A DNA stretch of 64,000 bases from Candidatus Lindowbacteria bacterium RIFCSPLOWO2_12_FULL_62_27. Lineage in GTDB: Bacteria > Lindowbacteria > 2-12-FULL-62-27. Below the pieces are notes generated by a model. It was given only the letters and a program-made list of their open reading frames with translations, ran no database searches and was not told where the DNA came from. Below are positions 52,610 through 64,000 of the stretch, piece after piece (the first letter of the stretch is position 1; each line of letters opens with the position of its first letter). The DNA lies in assembly GCA_001784175.1 (NCBI GenBank), contig MFPR01000020.1:124001-188000 (forward strand), read 5' to 3'. The translations under genes were made by a program, and so were the position numbers.

Positions 52610-52702
52610 GAGGATACAGGAAGAGAGATACGGCATCCGAACATACAATGTGTTTTTTGTTTTCGGATTTTTCTCATAACTTTTGACACTGAGGGGTGTC
52701 GG

Positions 52703-55183
52703 GTGCCGTGTAAGCACGAGCAGGACGTGAAGGCGGGGTTGTGCACTCGAAGGCCGTATTATCTCTCGGTCTTTCTCTCCATATTGATATGGTCCTCCCT
52801 CGGATCGAGTTCTCTTGCCCTCACTCCCCGAGAGGAACTGCAACAGATTCTGAATCAAATCCCCGCCGAGTGGTGGAACGGCGGATGGGACAAGCTCGCC
52901 GAATTGGAATCGTTTATCCAAGCCTATCCGGATAAACCCGAACTTTGCGCCACGGCGCAGTTTTACATCGGGGCGTATTACAACGGCGTCAAACAATATG
53001 AAAAATCCGTCGAGGCCCATCAGACGTTGCTGACGAAATATCCAACGGCAAAGGAATGCGTGAAATCTCTGTGGGAAATCGGCTATATCCAGCAACATAG
53101 GTTGAAGAACCTGTCTGAAGCTCTTCAGGCCTATAAGCGGATCATCAATCAATATGGAGAGAGCGCCGAGACGCCGAAGGCGATGCTGGCGGCGGGCATT
53201 ATCTATCACCGGGCCAAACAACCCGATGTGGCGATCCAGACTTATCAAGACTTGATCCGAGCACATCCAGAGGCCGATGAATCTCCACGGGCTCTGTTGA
53301 AAACAGGGATCATCTACCGCGAGGTGAAGAAAAGAGATCAGGAACTCCAACCGTATGAGCAGGTGCTTCAAACTTATGGCCACACCAAGTATGCTCCGGA
53401 GGCCAAATTGTTGATCGGCGAATATCATATGCGAGCGAAGGACCATGAGAAGGCCATCGCCATATTTCAGGAAATGATCCAGGATTATCCGAGCGCGGAA
53501 AAAGTGCCGGAGGCATTGATCAATATTGGCGTGTGTTACCGGGAGCAAAGGAAATGGAAAGAGGAGATGACAGCCTATCAGGAGGTGCTGAAAAAATATG
53601 GAAACACGGAATATGCGCCCCGCGCGAAATTTGAGATGGGGGAGTGCTATCAGATCGCGAAGGACTACAACACGGCCATAGAAGTTCTGCGGGATCTGAT
53701 CTGGAAATATCCGAAATCGGAGGAGGCCCCGCGGGCGTTGTTAAAGATCGGGCTTATCTACCGCCAGTTGAATGATTTTGACCAAGAGTTGGCAACGTAC
53801 CAGAAGGTAGTCGAGCATTTTGGAAGCACCAAATACGCGGCGGCCGCCCAACTCAAGATCGGAGGGGTTTACCAACGGGCCAAGAAATACGAGAAAGCGA
53901 TCGAGGCGTATGGTGATTTGGTTAGTAACGTCCCGGATGTGGATGAAGCTCCGCGCGCGCTTATGAACACGGCCGAATGCTATTTATTGTTGAAGGATCC
54001 CGCACGTGCCATCCGGACGTTTCAGCAAGTGAGCGAGTCCTATCCCACAGGCGAATACGCGGCGAGGGCAAAACTCGCAATAGGGCGTCAGTATCTCACC
54101 TTGGGAGAAGTTGAAAAGGCAAGGGCATATCTTTCTCAAGTAGTGTCAGATCAAAAACTGATTCCCGGCCGGCCTTTAATGGAAGCACGTTTGGTGATGG
54201 GAGATATTGCAAGATCAATGGGAGAACGCGGGGAGGCATTCGGTCACTACAAAGAAGCGTATCGTGAGCCATATCACAATGTGAAATTGCTGAAGGAGGT
54301 GATCGAGAAACTATATCACGAATTTTATCACCAAGATCGCAATTATAATCGAGCAAACCGTTTCATCGCGTATCAGGCGTATGGGCCCACCGGAGAAGAT
54401 GGAGCGGGAGGAACAACAGATGACCTGAAAGACCCGTTAATTGAGGATGCGCTTGAGGCGGCGAGCATCATCCAGCGGAGGAATGAGGCATTGAGCCAAG
54501 AGGATTTGTTGGAATTGTTAAGCTATCTATTACCGAAAATAGGCAAGTTTGAGGCGGCCGAAGCCGCGAGCAAAGAAGCGATGTCAATGCAGACAAGTAA
54601 GGCGATTGATCCGACGGTCACGGTAGGGGTACGGGTGACAGCGTTGAAACAGTTGGTGAAGAATGTGGCCGCAAGTCCATTACCAATGAGCCATGTTGAA
54701 TTGTATCGGGAGGCGATCTGGAGAAAGCAGCAGAGATATAGAGATATCATTCCGTTGGTGAGGCAGTCATTGGTGGAGTACGGCGGAGCGACTGCGATTC
54801 GGGAGGTGCAGGCTGAAGCGGAGAATCTGATCGCGAATGCGTATGAACTGCTCGGCGATCTGGATCGAAGCATTCAGGAATATGAGATTCTGGCAAACAA
54901 CGCGCCGACACTGGATTGGGAATTGTTCTGGCGGTTTATTCTGGCCGAGTTATATATTGACAAGGGCGAAGATGAGAAAGGGATATCGATTTATCGCAGC
55001 GTGATTCAGAATCATTTTCAGCATGAGAACTGGCCTGCCTCTGCGCATTTTGAACTGGCGATATATTTCAAGGATATAGGGGAAGTCGCCCAAGCACGTA
55101 AAGAATTACAGGAGATCGTGGCACATTATCCGAAATCGGCATGGTTCGACCCTGCGACAATAAATCTGACGACATGGAAATGA
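52703..55183 (+). CDS. Secreted TPR-repeat protein
   Basis: An 826-residue protein from GTG 52703, with a signal-like segment (YYLSVFLSILIWSSLGSSSL). Residues about 50-520 are tandem TPR/YbgF-type repeats of 34-36 residues, often paired (FYIGAYYNGVKQYEKSVEAH, LLKTGIIYREVKKRDQELQP, FEMGECYQIAKDYNTAIEVL, LKIGGVYQRAKKYEKAIEAY). A C-terminal helical region also ends in TPRs (GDLDRSIQEYEILANNAPTL). It probably forms a periplasmic scaffold for protein contacts. Base composition here is visibly lower in GC than in the preceding genes, and it opens the accessory island. Confidence 0.8.
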   Translation: MPCKHEQDVKAGLCTRRPYYLSVFLSILIWSSLGSSSLALTPREELQQILNQIPAEWWNGGWDKLAELESFIQAYPDKPELCATAQFYIGAYYNGVKQYEKSVEAHQTLLTKYPTAKECVKSLWEIGYIQQHRLKNLSEALQAYKRIINQYGESAETPKAMLAAGIIYHRAKQPDVAIQTYQDLIRAHPEADESPRALLKTGIIYREVKKRDQELQPYEQVLQTYGHTKYAPEAKLLIGEYHMRAKDHEKAIAIFQEMIQDYPSAEKVPEALINIGVCYREQRKWKEEMTAYQEVLKKYGNTEYAPRAKFEMGECYQIAKDYNTAIEVLRDLIWKYPKSEEAPRALLKIGLIYRQLNDFDQELATYQKVVEHFGSTKYAAAAQLKIGGVYQRAKKYEKAIEAYGDLVSNVPDVDEAPRALMNTAECYLLLKDPARAIRTFQQVSESYPTGEYAARAKLAIGRQYLTLGEVEKARAYLSQVVSDQKLIPGRPLMEARLVMGDIARSMGERGEAFGHYKEAYREPYHNVKLLKEVIEKLYHEFYHQDRNYNRANRFIAYQAYGPTGEDGAGGTTDDLKDPLIEDALEAASIIQRRNEALSQEDLLELLSYLLPKIGKFEAAEAASKEAMSMQTSKAIDPTVTVGVRVTALKQLVKNVAASPLPMSHVELYREAIWRKQQRYRDIIPLVRQSLVEYGGATAIREVQAEAENLIANAYELLGDLDRSIQEYEILANNAPTLDWELFWRFILAELYIDKGEDEKGISIYRSVIQNHFQHENWPASAHFELAIYFKDIGEVAQARKELQEIVAHYPKSAWFDPATINLTTWK

Positions 55184-55319
55184 GATCAAACCAGATGCGG
55201 CTCTGTCGATTAGTGTCTCTTCCGGGCCTGGTGGACATCCCTCACATTCGGTCGATATCGAGGGGCTGGCGAAATGGTCGCACAGCAACAATGAGACGAT
55301 TGTTTCCCTTGGAAATACA

Positions 55320-56318
55320 ATGTCGACTTGGAGTCGACAATCATCAGCCAGCTCCGAAGAGTTTTTCATAAGCATGGCCTCTCAGAACGAGTTTCGAACC
55401 CCTCGGCTTGGGCCGAGGCTCGTTGACATAAAATATGTCCTAAAAATGCTCTTCTGGTTTATGCTATGCTCTGCCATCATGATCATCTTTGTCGTCCCTA
55501 TTGCTATAGCTTGGGTTCGAGTAACAATAACGATTCCCGGCTCTGCGGACAGGTGGTTCGTTTATTGTAACGAAACGGTTACTGTCCACGCGAGAGTTCG
55601 CTCAGGATTATGGAGACCCAACAAAGGACATAATGATATTAGTAATCCTAATTATTATCAAATACCCGTCAGCGTTATATGGTCATTGACCACAGATATG
55701 CCGACGGGCGCGGGTTCTATATCTTCGCCGTCGACCACCGATTCCTATGGTCTTACGACCACCACCTATACGGCTCCAGGTACAACCGGAGGACCTTCCA
55801 AGCTTGGGCATACCACAGTTAACGGATTAACGGCCGCGCCCGGCACTGGAGCAAAAAGCTTCCAAATACGTGGCATCCCCTCGAAACCACCTTCGCCGGA
55901 TCCAAGTGCAACTCAGTTCAGCGACTATCTTGCTTTAGTAAAGAAGTATATTAATCTTTCAACAGAACAAACGGCTAAAGATGTCTTGTCTGAACAGGAG
56001 AATGAATGTCCTGCTATCACATATGATCCTTCGCTGCCTGACACCAGGTCCGGGCTCACAAAAATAGACAAAAATACAAATGCATGTAAATCGGTTTCGT
56101 TTGGGAAGAGCGCGTTACGCGATGTTGATGAGTTTATTAAAACCGTAATACACGAGGCCGGACACATTCGGGCAAAGAATAGCACACAACCGGATAAAGA
56201 TAATGATGGTGCTCGCGAGGATTTTGACTTGGACGACAATTCATGGGAACCGAATGCATTAGAAGATTTTCTTCACCAATTCGAAACAGATCATAATCCC
56301 GGTAATATTTGTAGCTAG
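55320..56318 (+). CDS. Membrane-anchored protein with HEAGH zinc-metallopeptidase-like motif
   Basis: A 332-residue protein from ATG 55320 (MASQNEF at 55374 is an alternative start). One transmembrane segment (FWFMLCSAIMIIFVVPIAIA, about residues 44-65) is followed by an Ig-like extracytoplasmic region rich in Ser, Thr and Gly (residues 90-180). Near the C-terminus is FIKTVIHEAGHIRAK, a HExxH zinc motif, followed by the acidic DKDNDGAREDFDLDDNSWEP, which resembles a calcium-binding loop. The frame stays open upstream to 55170, past the start, so the N-terminus may be longer. No family recognised. Confidence 0.65.
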   Translation: MSTWSRQSSASSEEFFISMASQNEFRTPRLGPRLVDIKYVLKMLFWFMLCSAIMIIFVVPIAIAWVRVTITIPGSADRWFVYCNETVTVHARVRSGLWRPNKGHNDISNPNYYQIPVSVIWSLTTDMPTGAGSISSPSTTDSYGLTTTTYTAPGTTGGPSKLGHTTVNGLTAAPGTGAKSFQIRGIPSKPPSPDPSATQFSDYLALVKKYINLSTEQTAKDVLSEQENECPAITYDPSLPDTRSGLTKIDKNTNACKSVSFGKSALRDVDEFIKTVIHEAGHIRAKNSTQPDKDNDGAREDFDLDDNSWEPNALEDFLHQFETDHNPGNICS

Positions 56319-56447
56319 TGTTTAGAAAAATGCCAATAATTGATAACGTGCGATCGGCTTCCTAATGGATGTAGATAAGGGTTTAGAGGTTGCGCGACCA
56401 GACGTACTATTCTGCCGACGAGTAAGGAATTTTACAGGAGGTGGGTC

Positions 56448-57485
56448 ATGATGGTAAGAATGAACAAGGCTCTTCTTTCGTTACTTGCACTGGTTATATT
56501 TACATGTGGTTCGCACAGAAATGCGTACCCAGATGATAAGCCGCATGACGATGATATTGATCAAGTACTCTTTATTAAATCGCCCGATCTGAATACTTTT
56601 ATTCTTCATTACTTGAAGCTTAACATTGATTCTGAAAGGGGAAAGAGAAAATCAGGAGAAGCATTCTCGTTTATATTCTCAGGTCAGTTCAATGATGAAG
56701 AAAGGATGGTGTGGCGAAAGGGCGGTCGGATCGGTCGTGAACCGGCACGGAGTATCTGGAGTCTTCGGAGTGCCGGAAAGGGTGTCTTTCCTGATGGCGA
56801 ACGCCAGACGATGAATGAAACCGTAAGAAAAGTTCTGGCTGATGGGGAGCAAAAAATGAACCCCAGGATACTTAGCACGCAGGGGTCCGGAATGATCTAT
56901 GTGGGCGAGGACAATGATTTCGAATTGGTGAGTATGATTGGTATTTATCCACTGACCAAGCAGGAATTATCGTCATTCCAAGAGGACATTACTTATACGC
57001 CGATTGAATCGGCATATTTGCAGATTGACGAATTATTCTCGAAAGCTGCTTGGACGGTCCCGGCGGATACACCAATCCGACTTGCCATGTTTCTTGTCGA
57101 TCAAATTGCATCTATTGACAGAGCTAGAAATGGACAGAGGGTGAGGATTGTTCCAGCGATTGAAATTTCACATCAGCTACGAGTAAGGGTCAATATCAAC
57201 GTGAGGGGATATCTGGATAAAACGCAACGCTTGCTTTTGGATAAAATAGCGACAAGTTTCAAGGCCTCGACGGAAAAACACAAGTGGATTAAAATATCTT
57301 TTACCGGTGTGGGACTCGTGGAAACGAAAACCAAGGGTCCACTCAGTGATTTTGAGATGGCACTGATTGAATTGTTGGTTGCCGAGATTCAATCGAAACA
57401 GACAGTTGCTGAGATAAAAATAGACGCGAAATTTAACAAGGGCGTGGGCGATGCCAAGAGCGATAACGACGATCATGATAGGTGA
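56448..57485 (+). CDS. Secreted protein of unknown function
   Basis: A 345-residue protein; AGGAGGTGGG precedes ATG 56448, deciding the start. The N-terminus (KALLSLLALVIFTCGSHRNA) is a signal peptide, possibly a lipoprotein (FTC). The mature protein is charged, with no recognised motif: RKSGEAFSFIFSGQFNDEER, LVSMIGIYPLTKQELSSFQE and LRVRVNINVRGYLDKTQRLL. The C-terminus is acidic/His-rich (SDNDDHDR). It lies in the accessory island between the HEAGH protein and the broken nucleosidase. Confidence 0.7.
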   Translation: MMVRMNKALLSLLALVIFTCGSHRNAYPDDKPHDDDIDQVLFIKSPDLNTFILHYLKLNIDSERGKRKSGEAFSFIFSGQFNDEERMVWRKGGRIGREPARSIWSLRSAGKGVFPDGERQTMNETVRKVLADGEQKMNPRILSTQGSGMIYVGEDNDFELVSMIGIYPLTKQELSSFQEDITYTPIESAYLQIDELFSKAAWTVPADTPIRLAMFLVDQIASIDRARNGQRVRIVPAIEISHQLRVRVNINVRGYLDKTQRLLLDKIATSFKASTEKHKWIKISFTGVGLVETKTKGPLSDFEMALIELLVAEIQSKQTVAEIKIDAKFNKGVGDAKSDNDDHDR

Positions 57486-57542
57486 CATTTGACACTCTGT
57501 CCGCTCAAATGCTGGCTAATGGCGAATTATCTGCAATAGGGG

Positions 57543-58371
57543 TTATTGCCTTTCGCCAATCCGCTTTATAATTTCAAGCACAAGCTGTGCCGAAATATCT
57601 GCGGCCATGCGGAACTGTTTACTAAAGTCCCCAGTGGCGTTTGAATTCGCCATATCACTGACGCTTCGAAGTGCCAGATATGGCACTCCCTGTTGCCAAC
57701 AAACCTGTGCGATCGCCGCCGCCTCCATTTCAACCGCGTCGGCGTGGAAAACCTTACGCAAAGACGCCTTTTTTGATGGTGAATGAAATAAATAGGTCAC
57801 CGGATACGATAACGCCTTTTAGAATATGTTGGAATCTCCTGAGTTCGTCGCTTGATTTCAGATTTATTGCAGCCGTCTCGGCGATATTCACAAGCCGAAT
57901 GGCAGCCGGGAAGAAATCCGGATTTCTGCTACCGATGATCGGATTTTTGACGCCTCGACTTGTGGTGGCTCCTTTTTCATCCAACGTTCCAAGGTCGTGT
58001 TGAGCCGTTTTCGTTGCAATTACCACGTCCCCAGTGGAGAGTTCCGGGTTGATGGCTCCGGCAACACCCGTCGAAATTACTTCATTGGGTCTAAAGTGTT
58101 CGATGAGGACGGTGGTGGTCATAGCCGCGTTGACCTTGCCGACGCCGGTGGCTGCTATGACAATTTTCCTTCCACCAATTTCTCCAATGTTGAACCTGAT
58201 TCCCTCGATGATGTGCTCCCGACCATTGCCCAAATCTGTTTTTAACAGCTCTACTTCGACATCCAATGCTCCTATGACAGCGGTTATGGAATCTTGCGCA
58301 TGGGCCATCGAATAAAACAACGGCATGTAAAGTAGGATGATGGTTTGTAGGATTCTGAAAAGGGCAGTCAT
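57543..58371 (-). pseudogene. Periplasmic-type 5'-methylthioadenosine/SAH nucleosidase, frameshifted
   Basis: The first part (from ATG 58369-58371) has a signal peptide (ILQTIILLYMPLFYSMAHAQ) and the MTAN N-terminal half: ITAVIGALDVEVELLKTDLG, IVIAATGVGKVNAAMTTTVL, ISTGVAGAINPELSTGDVVI and IVSGDLFIS. Its frame ends after FTIKKGVFA. The second part, in the next frame, continues the family (SPSKKASLRKVFHADAVEME, then AAAIAQVCWQQGVPYLALRS, VSDMANSNATGDF) to 57543. A one-base insertion near 57765-57790 therefore splits the gene. The secretion signal is unusual, as MTANs are normally cytosolic. It may be broken, or a sequencing error, or a real frameshift. Confidence 0.75.
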
Positions 58372-58441
58372 AAAGGTATATGGCCGCTTCTCGGCCGTCG
58401 GACAGTTTTTTATTTGACCTGAACTTGTATCCTGATAAGAC

Positions 58442-58585
58442 TTAATTTCGCGCTCCGGACGCGGCTTGGGATTTCGATATTTTATTGTAGCACCCTTTCC
58501 TGACCTTGGCGGATTGAGGATGCCGCTTTTCAAAAACAGAGAGTTTTTGAGATTTCTTTTTACCACCAGCATAGGCACCGGGCAT
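58442..58585 (-). CDS. 47-residue basic protein downstream of the reverse transcriptase
   Basis: ATG 58583-58585 is preceded by a strong ribosome site AAAAGGAGG. The product begins MPGAYAGGKKKSQKLSVFEK, is rich in Lys, Arg and Ser (KRHPQSAKVRKGCYNKISKS), has one cysteine, and lacks a membrane span. The GG near residue 8 recalls a double-glycine leader, but it is very short. It lies 188 bases after the reverse-transcriptase stop on the same strand, across the structured region. It could bind nucleic acid or be an exported peptide; neither is shown. Confidence 0.6.
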   Translation of the reverse strand: MPGAYAGGKKKSQKLSVFEKRHPQSAKVRKGCYNKISKSQAASGARN

Positions 58586-58624
58586 AAGTAAGCCTCCTTT
58601 TGAATTATTCTAGTGAATATGAAA

Positions 58625-58774
58625 AATGGAGCCTAGGCTTGCCTTAACAAGCCACGCTTAAACTGGCGAAGTGTCATGGGATGTTAATACTTACTTTCAA
58701 AAATGTAGCGAAAATTAGAACTCGTTCTGGTTTTCGCTGCAACTCATTGCCAGTGAGCGTTTGTTGGCTCCATT
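58625..58774 (-). ncRNA. Candidate structured RNA or element after the reverse transcriptase
   Basis: AATGGAGCC (58625-58633) and GGCTCCATT (58766-58774) form a perfect 9-bp inverted repeat closing a 150-nt region whose outer arm overlaps the RT stop. Inside are AGCGAAAA/TTTTCGCT (58707-58714 with 58731-58738) with an inner AGAAC/GTTCT-type stem, and GGCTTG-CCTTAA-CAAGCC (58636-58653). On the minus strand the closing arm runs into TTTTT. The layout of inverted arms around hairpins next to an RT recalls RT-associated RNAs, but there is no sequence match I can name. Confidence 0.5.
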
Positions 58775-60284
58775 AGGAAGTCAAGCTAACTCGGCGTTGC
58801 TTGTCAACCTTGCCGCCTTCTATTTTTAAGGTCCGAATCCAGCCCTCCAATTCTTCGGCGGCGTGGGTAAAAAACACACGATGAAAATATTGACCCCACG
58901 ATCTCGCGGTCCGATAGAACAATTCTGTTTTTTCTTCTGGGGTGTAGGGTGATGACAAAATATCAAGAAGTGCTTCCTTGCACAACTCGATGTTTTCTTT
59001 GCTCGGCTGAACCACCCCCTTCTCAATGTCGAATCCAAGCAAAGAGACGGGCTCGGTGTGCACATCGCGGGTTCCGCTCTTGCTCATGTTGATGATGAGT
59101 CCCAAATGGGTCTCAAGATATTCTTTGGCTTGGGTCAGGGTTTTTTCAGCGCCGAACTTTTTTCTGGCCACGAAGGTGACATCGTCGGCAAACCGCACCA
59201 TACGAAAGCCTTTTTGCTTGGCCCACACATCCAGCCGATGGAGAACCATGTTGCCTAGCATGGGCGACAGTGGCCCGCCCTGTGGGACACCCCGACCCCG
59301 CCGAACAAGCTCTCCATTCTCCTTTACGAGCTTGGCTCTGGCCTGGGCCATGATCCATGTGACGAGTCGCCAGTCTCCACGAAGGTCTTGCTTCAAAATC
59401 TTTCTCAATACGGGATGTGGGATCGAATCGAAAAAGTCCTTGATGTCGATGGCCACGACCCAGCGGTATCCCTCGTCCAGATAACTTCTGAAACACCGCA
59501 GCGCGTCGACCGCGCTTCTGCCGGGCCTGAACCCGAACGAAGAGGGCAGGAAGTAGGTTTCGGTGTACGGGCCGAGGACCTCGAACATCGCCGCCTGAAT
59601 GAGATGGTCTCGGACGGCGGGGATGGCCAATTCACGAACCCGCCCGTCCTTCTTGGGGATGAGCTTCTGCCGCAGCGGCCTGGGCTGAACCTGGTCCTCC
59701 AGAAATCGTTGCCGGACATCGTTGATAAACTCATCATGATTCTTAATCCGGTCGACGGATATCCCATCAACCCCGGCCGCCGGCCCGCGTTGCAGCAATC
59801 TATGCATGGCCGACTCCAGGACAAATCGTTGAGGGATCAGCGCCGACAACGGGAAGCGGATGGGATAATAGATGGACAACGACGCCGGTATGCCGCCGCG
59901 CCGAAGAGAGATCATGGCGCCTTTGGCCCTCCGCATATCGCCCGTGGGCGCCGGCGTGCGGATTCGACAGTCGCCGCCGTCCTTCGGCCGGATCAAAATT
60001 TCGCCGTTTTCGTAAGCGATGGCCGCAGGATAGAAATGAACACGGGACGCGTACCGTTGCGGAACCCATGCGTCTATGTCCCGTATGACAGGGAAGAAAT
60101 ACGGCAGTTTGGGGATGAAAAGTTTTTCCTCGTAGGGAAGGATTTCGTCCGGCTGAACACTGTCGCTTGTCAGCGCCTCCTGGAGTTGCCGTTCGGACAA
60201 TTGGGCCAGCATGAGGCGCGTGTCCGGCGCGGCAGACAAATAGTCTGTTATCACCTCTGCCAATAGCGGTGGGGGCTTGGTCAA
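58773..60284 (-). CDS. Group II-intron-like reverse transcriptase without endonuclease domain
   Basis: A 503-residue protein. The N-terminal about 165 residues are unfamiliar (VITDYLSAAPDTRLMLAQLS; FYPAAIAYENGEILIRPKDG). The RT domain follows: AAGVDGISVDRI (169-180), LIPKKDGRVRELAIPAVRDH, FGFRPGRSAVDALRCFRSYL, catalytic Asp280 in VVAIDIKDFFDSIPH, VPQGGPLSPMLGN (333-345) and VRFADDVTF (FADD 365-368), a variant of YADD. A short maturase/thumb-like tail (SWGQYFHRVFFTHAAEELEG) is present, with no HNH endonuclease. It starts at TTG, overlapping the exporter stop (TTGA). It belongs to the group II-like lineage; retron and DGR signatures are absent. Confidence 0.85.
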   Translation of the reverse strand: MTKPPPLLAEVITDYLSAAPDTRLMLAQLSERQLQEALTSDSVQPDEILPYEEKLFIPKLPYFFPVIRDIDAWVPQRYASRVHFYPAAIAYENGEILIRPKDGGDCRIRTPAPTGDMRRAKGAMISLRRGGIPASLSIYYPIRFPLSALIPQRFVLESAMHRLLQRGPAAGVDGISVDRIKNHDEFINDVRQRFLEDQVQPRPLRQKLIPKKDGRVRELAIPAVRDHLIQAAMFEVLGPYTETYFLPSSFGFRPGRSAVDALRCFRSYLDEGYRWVVAIDIKDFFDSIPHPVLRKILKQDLRGDWRLVTWIMAQARAKLVKENGELVRRGRGVPQGGPLSPMLGNMVLHRLDVWAKQKGFRMVRFADDVTFVARKKFGAEKTLTQAKEYLETHLGLIINMSKSGTRDVHTEPVSLLGFDIEKGVVQPSKENIELCKEALLDILSSPYTPEEKTELFYRTARSWGQYFHRVFFTHAAEELEGWIRTLKIEGGKVDKQRRVSLTS

Positions 60285-62683
60285 CGATCACCCTCACCCC
60301 AGCCCTCTCCCGCAAGCGGGAGAGGGGGAGGGGCGCCGGTCAATTCGGTGCCTGTATCCAGATTTCGGGCGATGTGAATTCTCTGGCCGGCGTCTCTGAT
60401 TGCTTCCAGCCGGTAGACTACAAAAAATATGGCGCATTTATAAATTTCAGAAAATTCCCGGAGCAGTTCAAGGATTTCCGTTTCCAAGCCGGGGTCCAGG
60501 GCGTCGATGACCTCGTCCAGCAGCAAGATTTTTGGCCTGCGCAGGAGCGCGCGCGCCAAGGCCAATCGTTTCCGTTCTCCGTGGGACAGCGATTGTGGGC
60601 CATCCAGTTTCAGGAGCAGCCCGCCCCGCCGCTCGATCATGTCCCATAATTTTACCTTTCTCAGAATTCCCTCGGCTTCGTCGGCGTCCGGCGGTCGGTT
60701 CAGTCCCAAGGACAGATTTTCCAGGACCGTGCCGTGAACGATCACGTCATCCGTTGGGACCATGACGACATGATTGCCCCATTCGATTTCACCGATTGAA
60801 TGGATCGGGATTTTGTCGATTCTGATCTCTCCGCTCGTGGGTAGAACGGTTTGATTTAGAACCAGCAGGAAAGTCGTCTTCCCTGCCCCGCTCGGTCCTG
60901 TGATCGCCGTCAATCCCTCCAATCTGTATTTCCCATGTACCGTCCAAAGAAGATGGCCGCCGTCTGGAGCATAACAAGTCAGCTTTTCCAAACGCAGGGT
61001 CTTGGGATTCTCGGGGAATTTTTCCCGGCCGGGCGCGATGCCGTCCATGGCGTCGTGTTGCCGATAGACCTCAAGGAACCTTCTGGCCCTGACAAGCACC
61101 CGCTGGATGTCCGGGCCGATATCGAACAGATCGAGGATGGGCGACAGGATCAGGGCGAACCAAGCGCCGATTCCAAAGGCGAAGCCCGGATCGAGTTCGC
61201 CATTTTTGACCGCAAGGATGGCCTGAACGATCAAGAGGACCGGCCCGATGGTCGCCAATGCATGGACCGCGACGTGGACCGCGCCGGATATGATTTGAAG
61301 TTTGACCTGTTCGTCCCTGAAGGGCGATGCCTTCTCTCGTACCCGGCGAAGCGCGTCTCGCAGGATGCGCATGGCGCGGATCGAATCCGCCTTGCCAAGA
61401 ACCTCCACCATCCGTTCGTTGGTCTGGCCGCGCAGACGCGCTATGCCCCACGAGTAGTGATAAACAAGGGCGCTGAAAACGGCGTATAAAACACCGATGA
61501 CTACGACGAGAACGGTTAGTTGTACGACGAAGTTCAGCGGCAACATAAACAGAAAAATCGGCAGTGGAAGCAAATGGGCCAGCCCTGTCGCAAATGTTGT
61601 GACGATTGAAATGGTTCCATCGAAGGCGGCATCGGCGTCGTCGAATCGCGTCAACAACTCCCCGGCCGGGTAACGCGTTTTGCGCTTCAGGACTCGTTGC
61701 ACAAATTTCAGTTGCCATTGCAGCCACAAGGAACTCACGGCGGAGGATTCGTAGGCTTCTTTCGTTGCGGAAACAACCAAGCCCACAACGACCAATAGTC
61801 CGATGATCCCGGCGCCCATGAGAATTTCGTTTATTTCGCCCGCGTGCCATATCGACGCGATGAGAAACGGCACAGGAACGAGGAGCAATGAGGAGACGAT
61901 GTCGAAAACGAACAATGTGGCGGGAATTCGCCAGTAAGGTTTCAGGAGCCGCAGCATTCCAAAGATGGGCCAGAGGCGCGATCTTTCCTGCCGGAAAAGG
62001 TCTGTAAAGAAAGTGAACGGGTGCCAGAAAACAGATAAGGGTCCGAAACGTTCCTGTGACATCCATCGTCGTGTAAACGACCTCGGCGGTGGAAAAGTCT
62101 CTTTCAAAATATTGATGAACCGATGAAGTCCTTCCAGTTTGTCGGCGATGTTGTTCAACCGGACCACGTCACCAGCCGTGATGGATAGTTGCAAGTCGAT
62201 GTCAGCCAGCCGGGGAATTCTTTGGCCCGGTGGCGGGGCCCATCGACAGGCCAGTGCGAAGGCCGCGTCGATCGCCGCCCAGAGCGCGATGTCAAGAAGG
62301 GGGAGAGCATCCGCGCTGCCGCCCGCCCGAAGCGCCGCGTCCCGTTTTGAAAAAAAGTCTTCCCACAGACTTGCGGCCTCTGACGGGGTGAGGGGATGGG
62401 GTCTTTCCCACGCTTGGGATGCCATCGATATAAACGTGTCGGCCATGCCGGAAACAGCTTTCCCCTGAGCGATCTTTCGGAAGAAGGGGCCGTTTCGTTG
62501 TCTTCGCGCCGTTATTCTCTCTATGAGGTCGCTTCGGCTCGTGTAATCGACAACGAAGTCCCGGACGTTCTCCGAGTGGGTCTCTCGGGTTCTCGGGCCG
62601 GCGGTTGTGACAACCAGAAATTCGTTGTCCGAGAACCGGATGACCGCTTCTGTTCCGGAGGACTTTAGAAAATCAAGAGCCAT
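60281..62683 (-). CDS. ABC exporter, fused membrane and ATP-binding domains, with N-terminal extension
   Basis: An 800-residue half-exporter of type-I secretion/peptide-export style. Residues 1-about 240 are a soluble, unrecognised extension without a C39 peptidase motif. Six transmembrane segments follow (about 245-520, e.g. LLVPVPFLIASIWHAGEINE, FLFMLPLNFVVQLTVLVVVI). The ATPase has Walker A GPSGAGKTT (596-604), signature LSHGERKRLALARALL and Walker B ILLLDEVIDALD. The Q-loop glutamine is Thr (VPTDD) and the H-loop histidine is Tyr (FVVYRLEAI). The last about 17 residues are encoded by a REP-like repeat. It is six bases after the HlyD-like gene and overlaps the RT gene. Confidence 0.85.
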   Translation of the reverse strand: MALDFLKSSGTEAVIRFSDNEFLVVTTAGPRTRETHSENVRDFVVDYTSRSDLIERITARRQRNGPFFRKIAQGKAVSGMADTFISMASQAWERPHPLTPSEAASLWEDFFSKRDAALRAGGSADALPLLDIALWAAIDAAFALACRWAPPPGQRIPRLADIDLQLSITAGDVVRLNNIADKLEGLHRFINILKETFPPPRSFTRRWMSQERFGPLSVFWHPFTFFTDLFRQERSRLWPIFGMLRLLKPYWRIPATLFVFDIVSSLLLVPVPFLIASIWHAGEINEILMGAGIIGLLVVVGLVVSATKEAYESSAVSSLWLQWQLKFVQRVLKRKTRYPAGELLTRFDDADAAFDGTISIVTTFATGLAHLLPLPIFLFMLPLNFVVQLTVLVVVIGVLYAVFSALVYHYSWGIARLRGQTNERMVEVLGKADSIRAMRILRDALRRVREKASPFRDEQVKLQIISGAVHVAVHALATIGPVLLIVQAILAVKNGELDPGFAFGIGAWFALILSPILDLFDIGPDIQRVLVRARRFLEVYRQHDAMDGIAPGREKFPENPKTLRLEKLTCYAPDGGHLLWTVHGKYRLEGLTAITGPSGAGKTTFLLVLNQTVLPTSGEIRIDKIPIHSIGEIEWGNHVVMVPTDDVIVHGTVLENLSLGLNRPPDADEAEGILRKVKLWDMIERRGGLLLKLDGPQSLSHGERKRLALARALLRRPKILLLDEVIDALDPGLETEILELLREFSEIYKCAIFFVVYRLEAIRDAGQRIHIARNLDTGTELTGAPPPLPLAGEGWGEGDR
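60291..60335 (-). repeat. REP-like palindromic repeat, copy 2
   Basis: CCCTCTCCCGC-AA-GCGGGAGAGGG (60303-60326) is a perfect 11-bp stem, flanked by CCCTCACCCC. It is the inverted form of the element at 9109-9152. It lies in the 3' end of the ABC exporter gene and encodes the residues PPPLPLAGEGWGEG. Confidence 0.75.
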
Positions 62684-62689
62684 GGGGGG

Positions 62690-63472
62690 CTATTGTCCAA
62701 ACTTGATAACCGCTCCCTCCGGCCTTTGGGCCAGGAGCACACCAAACAGAGAGCCTTTGTAATGTACGGCCTCGACGACCACTTCCGATCCGATTGGAGG
62801 GACGGTCGTATCCGTGAATGCGACGGTGCAGTTGACATGAGATTCATAAGAACGGTTCGGCCGGATGAGGCCAACACCCCGGAAAACAACTCTGCCTGAA
62901 TAACGCTTGCCCCAGACATCCGTTATCGAAACAAGAGAGCCTTCGCCAAACGCCCTAAACCCGCGTTCGGGCACAGGCACATCAATTGTCGGAGAATCCG
63001 ATTGATAAATACGAAACAGCGGTCGGTCTTCGATGACCGTGCGGCCTTCCTCCAAAAAATCGAATAATTCGACGATCCCGGTCACGGGTGCGCGAAGAAC
63101 CACGGCCTTCATATTCTCTTCGAGCCGCTGCATCCGCGTTTTGACGTGTTCATCTCGCGGGAGCGGTATGTCAATCCATCCAGTTTCGAGTTTGGATTGT
63201 AAAGATGAGATTTCATCTGCGAAGCCGCCCGTATCCAGAATCAGGACGGGATCGCCCGCAGAAACCTTCACGCCTGTTGAGGCGACGATTTTTTTCAGAG
63301 GCGCCTTAAACGGTGCGGAGACCAGGATGGTCTTGCCGGTCACTGTTCCGGCCGCCGGAACCACGATGCGGACGGGAACGAATATTGTCAGGGCGACAGC
63401 GACCATGACCGCGAGGCCCAAAACGGTCCTGCCGATTCGAGCGATGAATTTGGGTGAAATCCAGCGGTTCAT
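62690..63472 (-). CDS. HlyD-like membrane fusion (periplasmic adaptor) protein
   Basis: A 260-residue protein with one N-terminal transmembrane segment (VLGLAVMVAVALTIFVPVRI). A lipoyl/barrel-sandwich motif follows (VSAPFKAPLKKIVASTGVKV, SAGDPVLILDTGG), then a short helical hairpin, a second lipoyl half (APVTGIVELFDFLEEGRTVI) and beta-barrel (EGSLVSITDVWGKRYSGRVV). It is shorter than classic HlyD and would couple the ABC exporter to the periplasm or outer membrane. No TolC-like gene is in the window. The start overlaps the upstream gene by four bases. Confidence 0.85.
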   Translation of the reverse strand: MNRWISPKFIARIGRTVLGLAVMVAVALTIFVPVRIVVPAAGTVTGKTILVSAPFKAPLKKIVASTGVKVSAGDPVLILDTGGFADEISSLQSKLETGWIDIPLPRDEHVKTRMQRLEENMKAVVLRAPVTGIVELFDFLEEGRTVIEDRPLFRIYQSDSPTIDVPVPERGFRAFGEGSLVSITDVWGKRYSGRVVFRGVGLIRPNRSYESHVNCTVAFTDTTVPPIGSEVVVEAVHYKGSLFGVLLAQRPEGAVIKFGQ

Positions 63473-64000
63473 TCTTCCACGTCCGTCGATTTTTCTTCAA
63501 TCAGTTCCTTGTTCAAGGCGACAAGAGACGATCCCGGTGAGCCCGGATAGGGCGTTGGATTCTCCATAAACAGTCTGTCGCACTGGGGACAGCTTGTCAC
63601 ATCCGGCTGTAAATCGAGAGACCTCTTTTTTCCATCCTCGCGCGGTGGGACAAGGTGAACGAAACTCGACGGCGAGTACCATTCGGCGGGAGGCTTGCCG
63701 CCCACGCGCCTGAGAAGGTCCTCCGCCAGATCCAACAGCGTCTTCACCGCGCTCATGAACGCCGTTTTTGAAGCGGAGGCTCGGCCAAGATAAGGCGACA
63801 TGCCGCGGGCCAGGTCGTGACTGTTGGTGATCCGGCGGCTGATGCTCGCCACTTCCAGATAAATCTTGAACAGGAGGTCCATCGATTGGTCCCCTCGGGC
63901 CAACAGTTCATTGAGGTTGTCGATCCACGTATCGAGACGAATCCGGTGATGGAACAATTCGCGCGATGGGATGAGGCGCGTTCGATGAGCGTTCTCGGCG
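63469..64000 (-). CDS. Unknown protein of the exporter operon, N-terminus beyond window edge
   Basis: The reverse frame stays open to position 64000, so only the C-terminal about 176 residues are seen. They are helical (LDTWIDNLNELLARGDQSMD, ASKTAFMSAVKTLLDLAEDL) and contain a CPQC pair (VTSCPQCDRLFMENPTPYP), not obviously a complete zinc site. No transmembrane segment is visible. The stop overlaps the HlyD-like start (ATGA), making it the first visible gene of the exporter/RT cluster. Not recognised. Confidence 0.65.
   Translation of the reverse strand, partial: AENAHRTRLIPSRELFHHRIRLDTWIDNLNELLARGDQSMDLLFKIYLEVASISRRITNSHDLARGMSPYLGRASASKTAFMSAVKTLLDLAEDLLRRVGGKPPAEWYSPSSFVHLVPPREDGKKRSLDLQPDVTSCPQCDRLFMENPTPYPGSPGSSLVALNKELIEEKSTDVEE

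Follow-up and report, generated by a model that had tools for sequence, protein, structure and literature searches.

Reverse transcriptases (RTs) that serve their hosts have arisen repeatedly from group II introns, the CRISPR-associated RTs and G2L4 being examples. G2L4 RT provides a comparison, in terms of how such an enzyme might work, for a cellular polymerase or end-joining role (PMC12337344). The distinctive feature of G2L4 is a YIDD active-site motif, while G2L3/UG10 is defined by V replacing the A of the YADD motif. The substitution of F for Y is common among the CRISPR-associated group II-like RTs (PMC4244168). Among mobile introns, those of class C insert after terminator hairpins, and their targets comprise terminators and attC sites (PMC4424553).

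The locus described here lies within a 64-kb window (the whole stretch of DNA analysed; C20:124001-188000), which has a GC content of 0.61 and belongs to a contig of a 4.39-Mb draft genome that is 94% complete. The family of the source genome includes two other genomes only, and these are the sole other sampled genomes of the phylum. The window contains a free-standing, group II-like RT gene. The reading preferred here, at a probability of about 0.55, is that it encodes a domesticated, lineage-restricted RT, which is specified at the 3' end of an exporter operon and presumably serves the exporter. The RT is known from one genome in a poorly sampled lineage, and its value is that of a lead.

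Affinities of the reverse transcriptase

The RT gene (58773..60284, minus strand) begins with a TTG start codon and encodes 503 amino acids. Residues 1-150 constitute a novel N-terminus and residues 155-486 a group IIC-like RT and thumb, within which the active site reads FADD (365-368) instead of YADD and the motif PQGGPLSP is present. Profile searches matched the protein to RVT_1 in Pfam (2.8e-29) and to the group II RT/maturase model TIGR04416 in NCBIfam (residues 155-484, model positions 4-343 of 353), with a score of 242 bits that falls below the cut-off of 300 bits. No endonuclease domain was matched in profile searches and no C..C pair was found in a motif scan. The C-terminus was shortened and ended shortly past the thumb; group II RTs extend from there into the D region.

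The closest solved relative of the core was GsI-IIC RT (sequence search, 1.5e-47). Structural comparison gave the same partner (Z = 36.9, 355 residues, 2.3 A) for a model that was itself partly guided by group II sequences. This AlphaFold model was confident only from about residue 141, and the comparison covers residues 139-503; residues 1-140 mostly had pLDDT below 50. When searched alone, the N-terminus matched no family in Pfam and no relative among plasmids, and its codon-position composition was coding-like overall.

Alignment with 51 group II-type RTs showed that D280, D367 and D368 were invariant, and that the RT was changed at 18 other positions, each of which was at least 90% conserved in the 51 sequences. 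In a phylogenetic tree the RT fell among group II RTs, and its position there was uncertain; its branch was very long (2.7 changes per column) and no starred clade contained it. A survey of some 1,110 distinct genomes, together with plasmids, phages and viral contigs, turned up no orthologue. The genomes sampled were the source genome itself, a broad sample of 97, the two of its phylum, 348 from the phylum of a Polyangiaceae locus and 371 from the phylum of a Planctomycetota locus, plus a further broad sample of 385 that overlaps the set of 97. Matches in these genomes were ordinary group II-type RTs only, at ~30-40% identity over residues ~150-485. A larger genome scan with generic motifs, which a rare orthologue could escape, returned none among the matches listed.

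Neither the 64-kb window nor locus L011 (20 kb) gave any match to a group II ribozyme, domain V included, in searches with Rfam. The same searches were positive for control introns of other genomes and for both other RT loci of this genome, identifying group II D1-D4 and domain V at L013, and domain V at L014. A mobile group II intron was rejected on these grounds. The two other RT loci are ordinary group II introns (L013:4776-6652 and L014:4925-5701), of which one has a complete-looking ORF and the other a short RT fragment. The RT thus fits G2L enzymes in the general sense, being group II-related, free-standing and without a ribozyme. Membership of G2L4 was rejected because the active site is FADD and not YIDD, and membership of G2L3/UG10 because it is FADD, without V replacing A. 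As regards G2L5, a group to which planctomycete sequences belong, 372 genomes from the phylum of the Planctomycetota locus contained no detected orthologue. A CRISPR-associated RT was likewise rejected, since neither the RT nor its scanned neighbours carried a Cas domain and repeat searches identified no array. The RT lacked the NAxxH and VTG motifs of retrons, and no long near-identical direct repeats of the kind found in DGRs occurred within 14-20 kb of it; both assignments were dismissed. The preliminary description had stated that the RT is group II-like and without endonuclease, and that no domain V, retron or DGR signature is seen; these statements were supported, and its suggestion of a possible retroelement-derived origin was well supported.

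The exporter operon

The preliminary description missed the operon context of the RT, which is the 3' gene after ABC and HlyD genes on the minus strand. The first gene of the operon encodes an orphan protein of 297 aa (63469..64362, past the window end at 64000; L011:7470-8363). It is followed by a HlyD-like membrane fusion/adaptor protein of 260 aa (62690..63472), identified through weak RND_mfp and HlyD matches, and by an ABC exporter permease/ATPase of 800 aa (60281..62683; ABC_tran, 2.8e-24), the stop codon of which overlaps the start of the RT, the fourth and last gene, by 4 nt. From first gene to last, the spacing was -4, +6 and -4 nt, and GC3 was 0.70, 0.59, 0.65 and 0.67. Matches of the ABC protein to CydC- and NHLM-type exporter models were weak and far under the cut-offs. 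The 297-aa protein had no family, no relative in PDB and no match in 385 other genomes, and its predicted structure had a pLDDT of 37. None of the ABC, 297-aa and RT genes was found in the two family-member genomes tested. A transposase-like ORF of 498 aa (L011:17009-18505) is situated ~9 kb upstream of the first gene.

The preferred reading is supported by the short gaps, the similar GC3 from gene to gene, the lack of a detectable ribozyme, the affinity of the core to GsI-IIC RT, the 18 altered positions beside conserved catalytic residues, the long branch and the coding-like N-terminus. It is weakened because the junction of the ABC and RT genes carries a REP-like, 11-bp perfect palindrome (60303..60326). 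This occupies the last part of the ABC gene, ending 18 nt ahead of the RT start codon, and an identical copy occurs once more in the genome. The ABC frame runs through it into a Pro/Gly-rich tail, so that the ABC C-terminus is partly repeat-encoded. Since the palindrome lies on or beside both ends that meet at this junction, the overlap of 4 nt may have arisen recently by accident and need not reflect a long-standing coupling.

The palindrome also bears on the strongest rival to a domesticated RT, namely that the gene is a relic in decay, derived from a group IIC-like intron that would have inserted beside the palindrome and lost its RNA, leaving an ORF that persists without function. Besides the proximity of the palindrome to the RT start, the preference of class C introns for terminators and attC sites (PMC4424553), the many altered positions among otherwise conserved residues, the long branch and the restriction to one genome are all consistent with such a history. 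It is nonetheless unlikely; the frame is intact over 503 codons with codon-position bias, the catalytic residues are kept, a coding-like new N-terminus occupies the place where domains I-III would lie, and the GC3 of the RT resembles that of the operon.

If the RT is domesticated, then by analogy with G2L4 RT it would be an active, free-standing polymerase in the cytosol, copying or extending cellular or invading nucleic acid, and its output or its regulation may be tied to the exporter. A bolder version would unite the domesticated RT and its particular N-terminal domain, the dedicated ABC/HlyD exporter and the orphan in a new kind of RT system, one that might for example make or sense cDNA for export or competition; this was considered very improbable.

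Alternatively, the RT might belong to an anti-phage system, with the exporter genes as its effector or accessory parts. A free-standing RT in a sporadic operon would suit this explanation, and the protein does resemble DRT/UG models and the structures of DRT2 and DRT9, although less than it resembles group II RTs. Group II models outscored those of DRTs by far (242 bits, against 114 bits for the best UG model); Drt2, Drt3a and Drt4 were far under their cut-offs, and assignment to a DRT/UG family was rejected. In addition, profile scans recognized no known defence neighbours, and nothing relevant on RT operons with ABC/HlyD partners was found in the literature searched. A defence system of this kind is quite unlikely.

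The region 3' of the reverse transcriptase

Immediately 3' of the RT is a hairpin-rich element of 150 bp (58625..58774), closed by a 9-bp perfect inverted repeat (58625-58633/58766-58774) and containing an 18-nt inverted repeat. Its predicted fold was more stable on the plus strand (-63.2 kcal/mol, z = -6.7) than on the minus strand (-50.5 kcal/mol, z = -5.3), and 0 of 200 shuffles were as good. When the region from 50 to 64 kb was tiled (292 windows), a single score was lower, and this came from a plus-strand window overlapping the element itself. Within the inner 18-nt stem, three positions that are not perfectly complementary read as G-U pairs on the plus strand and as A-C mismatches on the minus strand. 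To judge from the sequence, this pattern tends to favour an RNA made from the plus strand, the one opposite to the RT, but it could be due to chance. A DNA search identified no second copy of the element in the genome, and it matched no Rfam family. An integron cassette or attC site was rejected, since there was no RYYYAAC...GTTRRRY core-site pair at the inverted repeat; no integron integrase exceeded the cut-off in the source genome.

Beyond the element is an ORF for a basic protein of 47 aa (58442..58585, minus strand), with a perfect Shine-Dalgarno sequence (AGGAGG) 7 nt before its ATG. ORFs preceded by such a site within the window are mostly long genes, and translation of the 47-aa ORF is plausible for that reason. 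The protein had no relatives in the genomes, plasmids or phages tested. Its GC3 was 0.44 (binomial P = 0.002 against 0.65), and that of the genes beyond it was about 0.40-0.46. Composition drops at the RT stop codon, where the gap has a GC content of 0.41; intergenic DNA is often AT-rich, and so this last value is supporting rather than decisive.

The sequence from 52700 to 58700 is a low-GC tract (0.42-0.53), encoding a TPR protein, a protein with an HExxH-like motif (HEAGH), an orphan and a nucleosidase. It is possibly an acquired region that ends at the RT stop. The gene for the MTA/SAH nucleosidase (57543-58372, minus strand), which has a signal-peptide-like start, is interrupted by a one-base frameshift close to an A6 run at ~57770 that divides it between two frames, and represents either a pseudogene or an assembly error.

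The preliminary description had regarded the RT, the structured region and the 47-residue protein as a single module on one strand. Its individual observations of a closed, hairpin-rich region of ~150 nt and of a small ORF with a strong ribosome site held good. The RT and the 47-aa ORF do share the minus strand, whereas for the structured region the better fold is that of the plus strand. As a unit, the three parts would imply an RNA that acts as template or cofactor in the manner of a DRT or retron, and a small protein acting as toxin, primer or chaperone. The parts adjoin within 190 nt, and over 14 kb the element ranks first in stability among stretches of 150 bp. Its closing inverted repeat and internal hairpins loosely recall the a1/a2 layout of retrons, and the ribosome site of the ORF is strong. 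Against this, composition breaks at the RT stop, the element folds best opposite the RT strand, and neither copies of the element nor relatives of the protein were found. The RT appears to be coupled to the ABC genes and lacks the retron motifs. Moreover, retron RNAs are usually placed 5' of the RT, and the element is 3' of it. The grouping into one module is not supported and was considered very unlikely. Most likely, the element and the 47-aa gene would belong to the adjoining low-GC region, either as a separate transcript or as a processing or termination signal.

Comparison with described systems

DRT2, DRT9 and the retrons share with this locus a free-standing RT and, possibly, a nearby structured RNA, but profile scores were much weaker for these systems, the retron motifs are missing and the orientation of the element is mismatched. 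The CRISPR-associated RTs (G2L1/G2L2) are similarly group II-like and lack a ribozyme; here, however, there is no fusion to Cas1 or Cas6, no cas genes were recognized among the scanned flanks and no CRISPR array was found nearby. G2L4 (PMC12337344) resembles the present RT in being free-standing, derived from group II introns and without intron RNA; the two differ in the active site, which is FADD here and not YIDD, and structure alignment gave an identity of only 17-18%.

The best match by both sequence and structure was to GsI-IIC RT (PDB 6ar1), of group IIC, with which the protein shares an RT and thumb without endonuclease, the PQGGxLSP motif and the catalytic aspartates. It departs from GsI-IIC RT in that no ribozyme was found, in having FADD for YADD, a novel N-terminus of 150 aa and a short C-terminus, and in its location within an ABC operon. 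Should the preferred reading of a domesticated RT in an exporter operon be true, a long-branch group II-like RT with a novel N-terminus and an apparent link to an exporter would add one more case of independent domestication, in a context where none would be expected. The intact polymerase residues make this idea testable.
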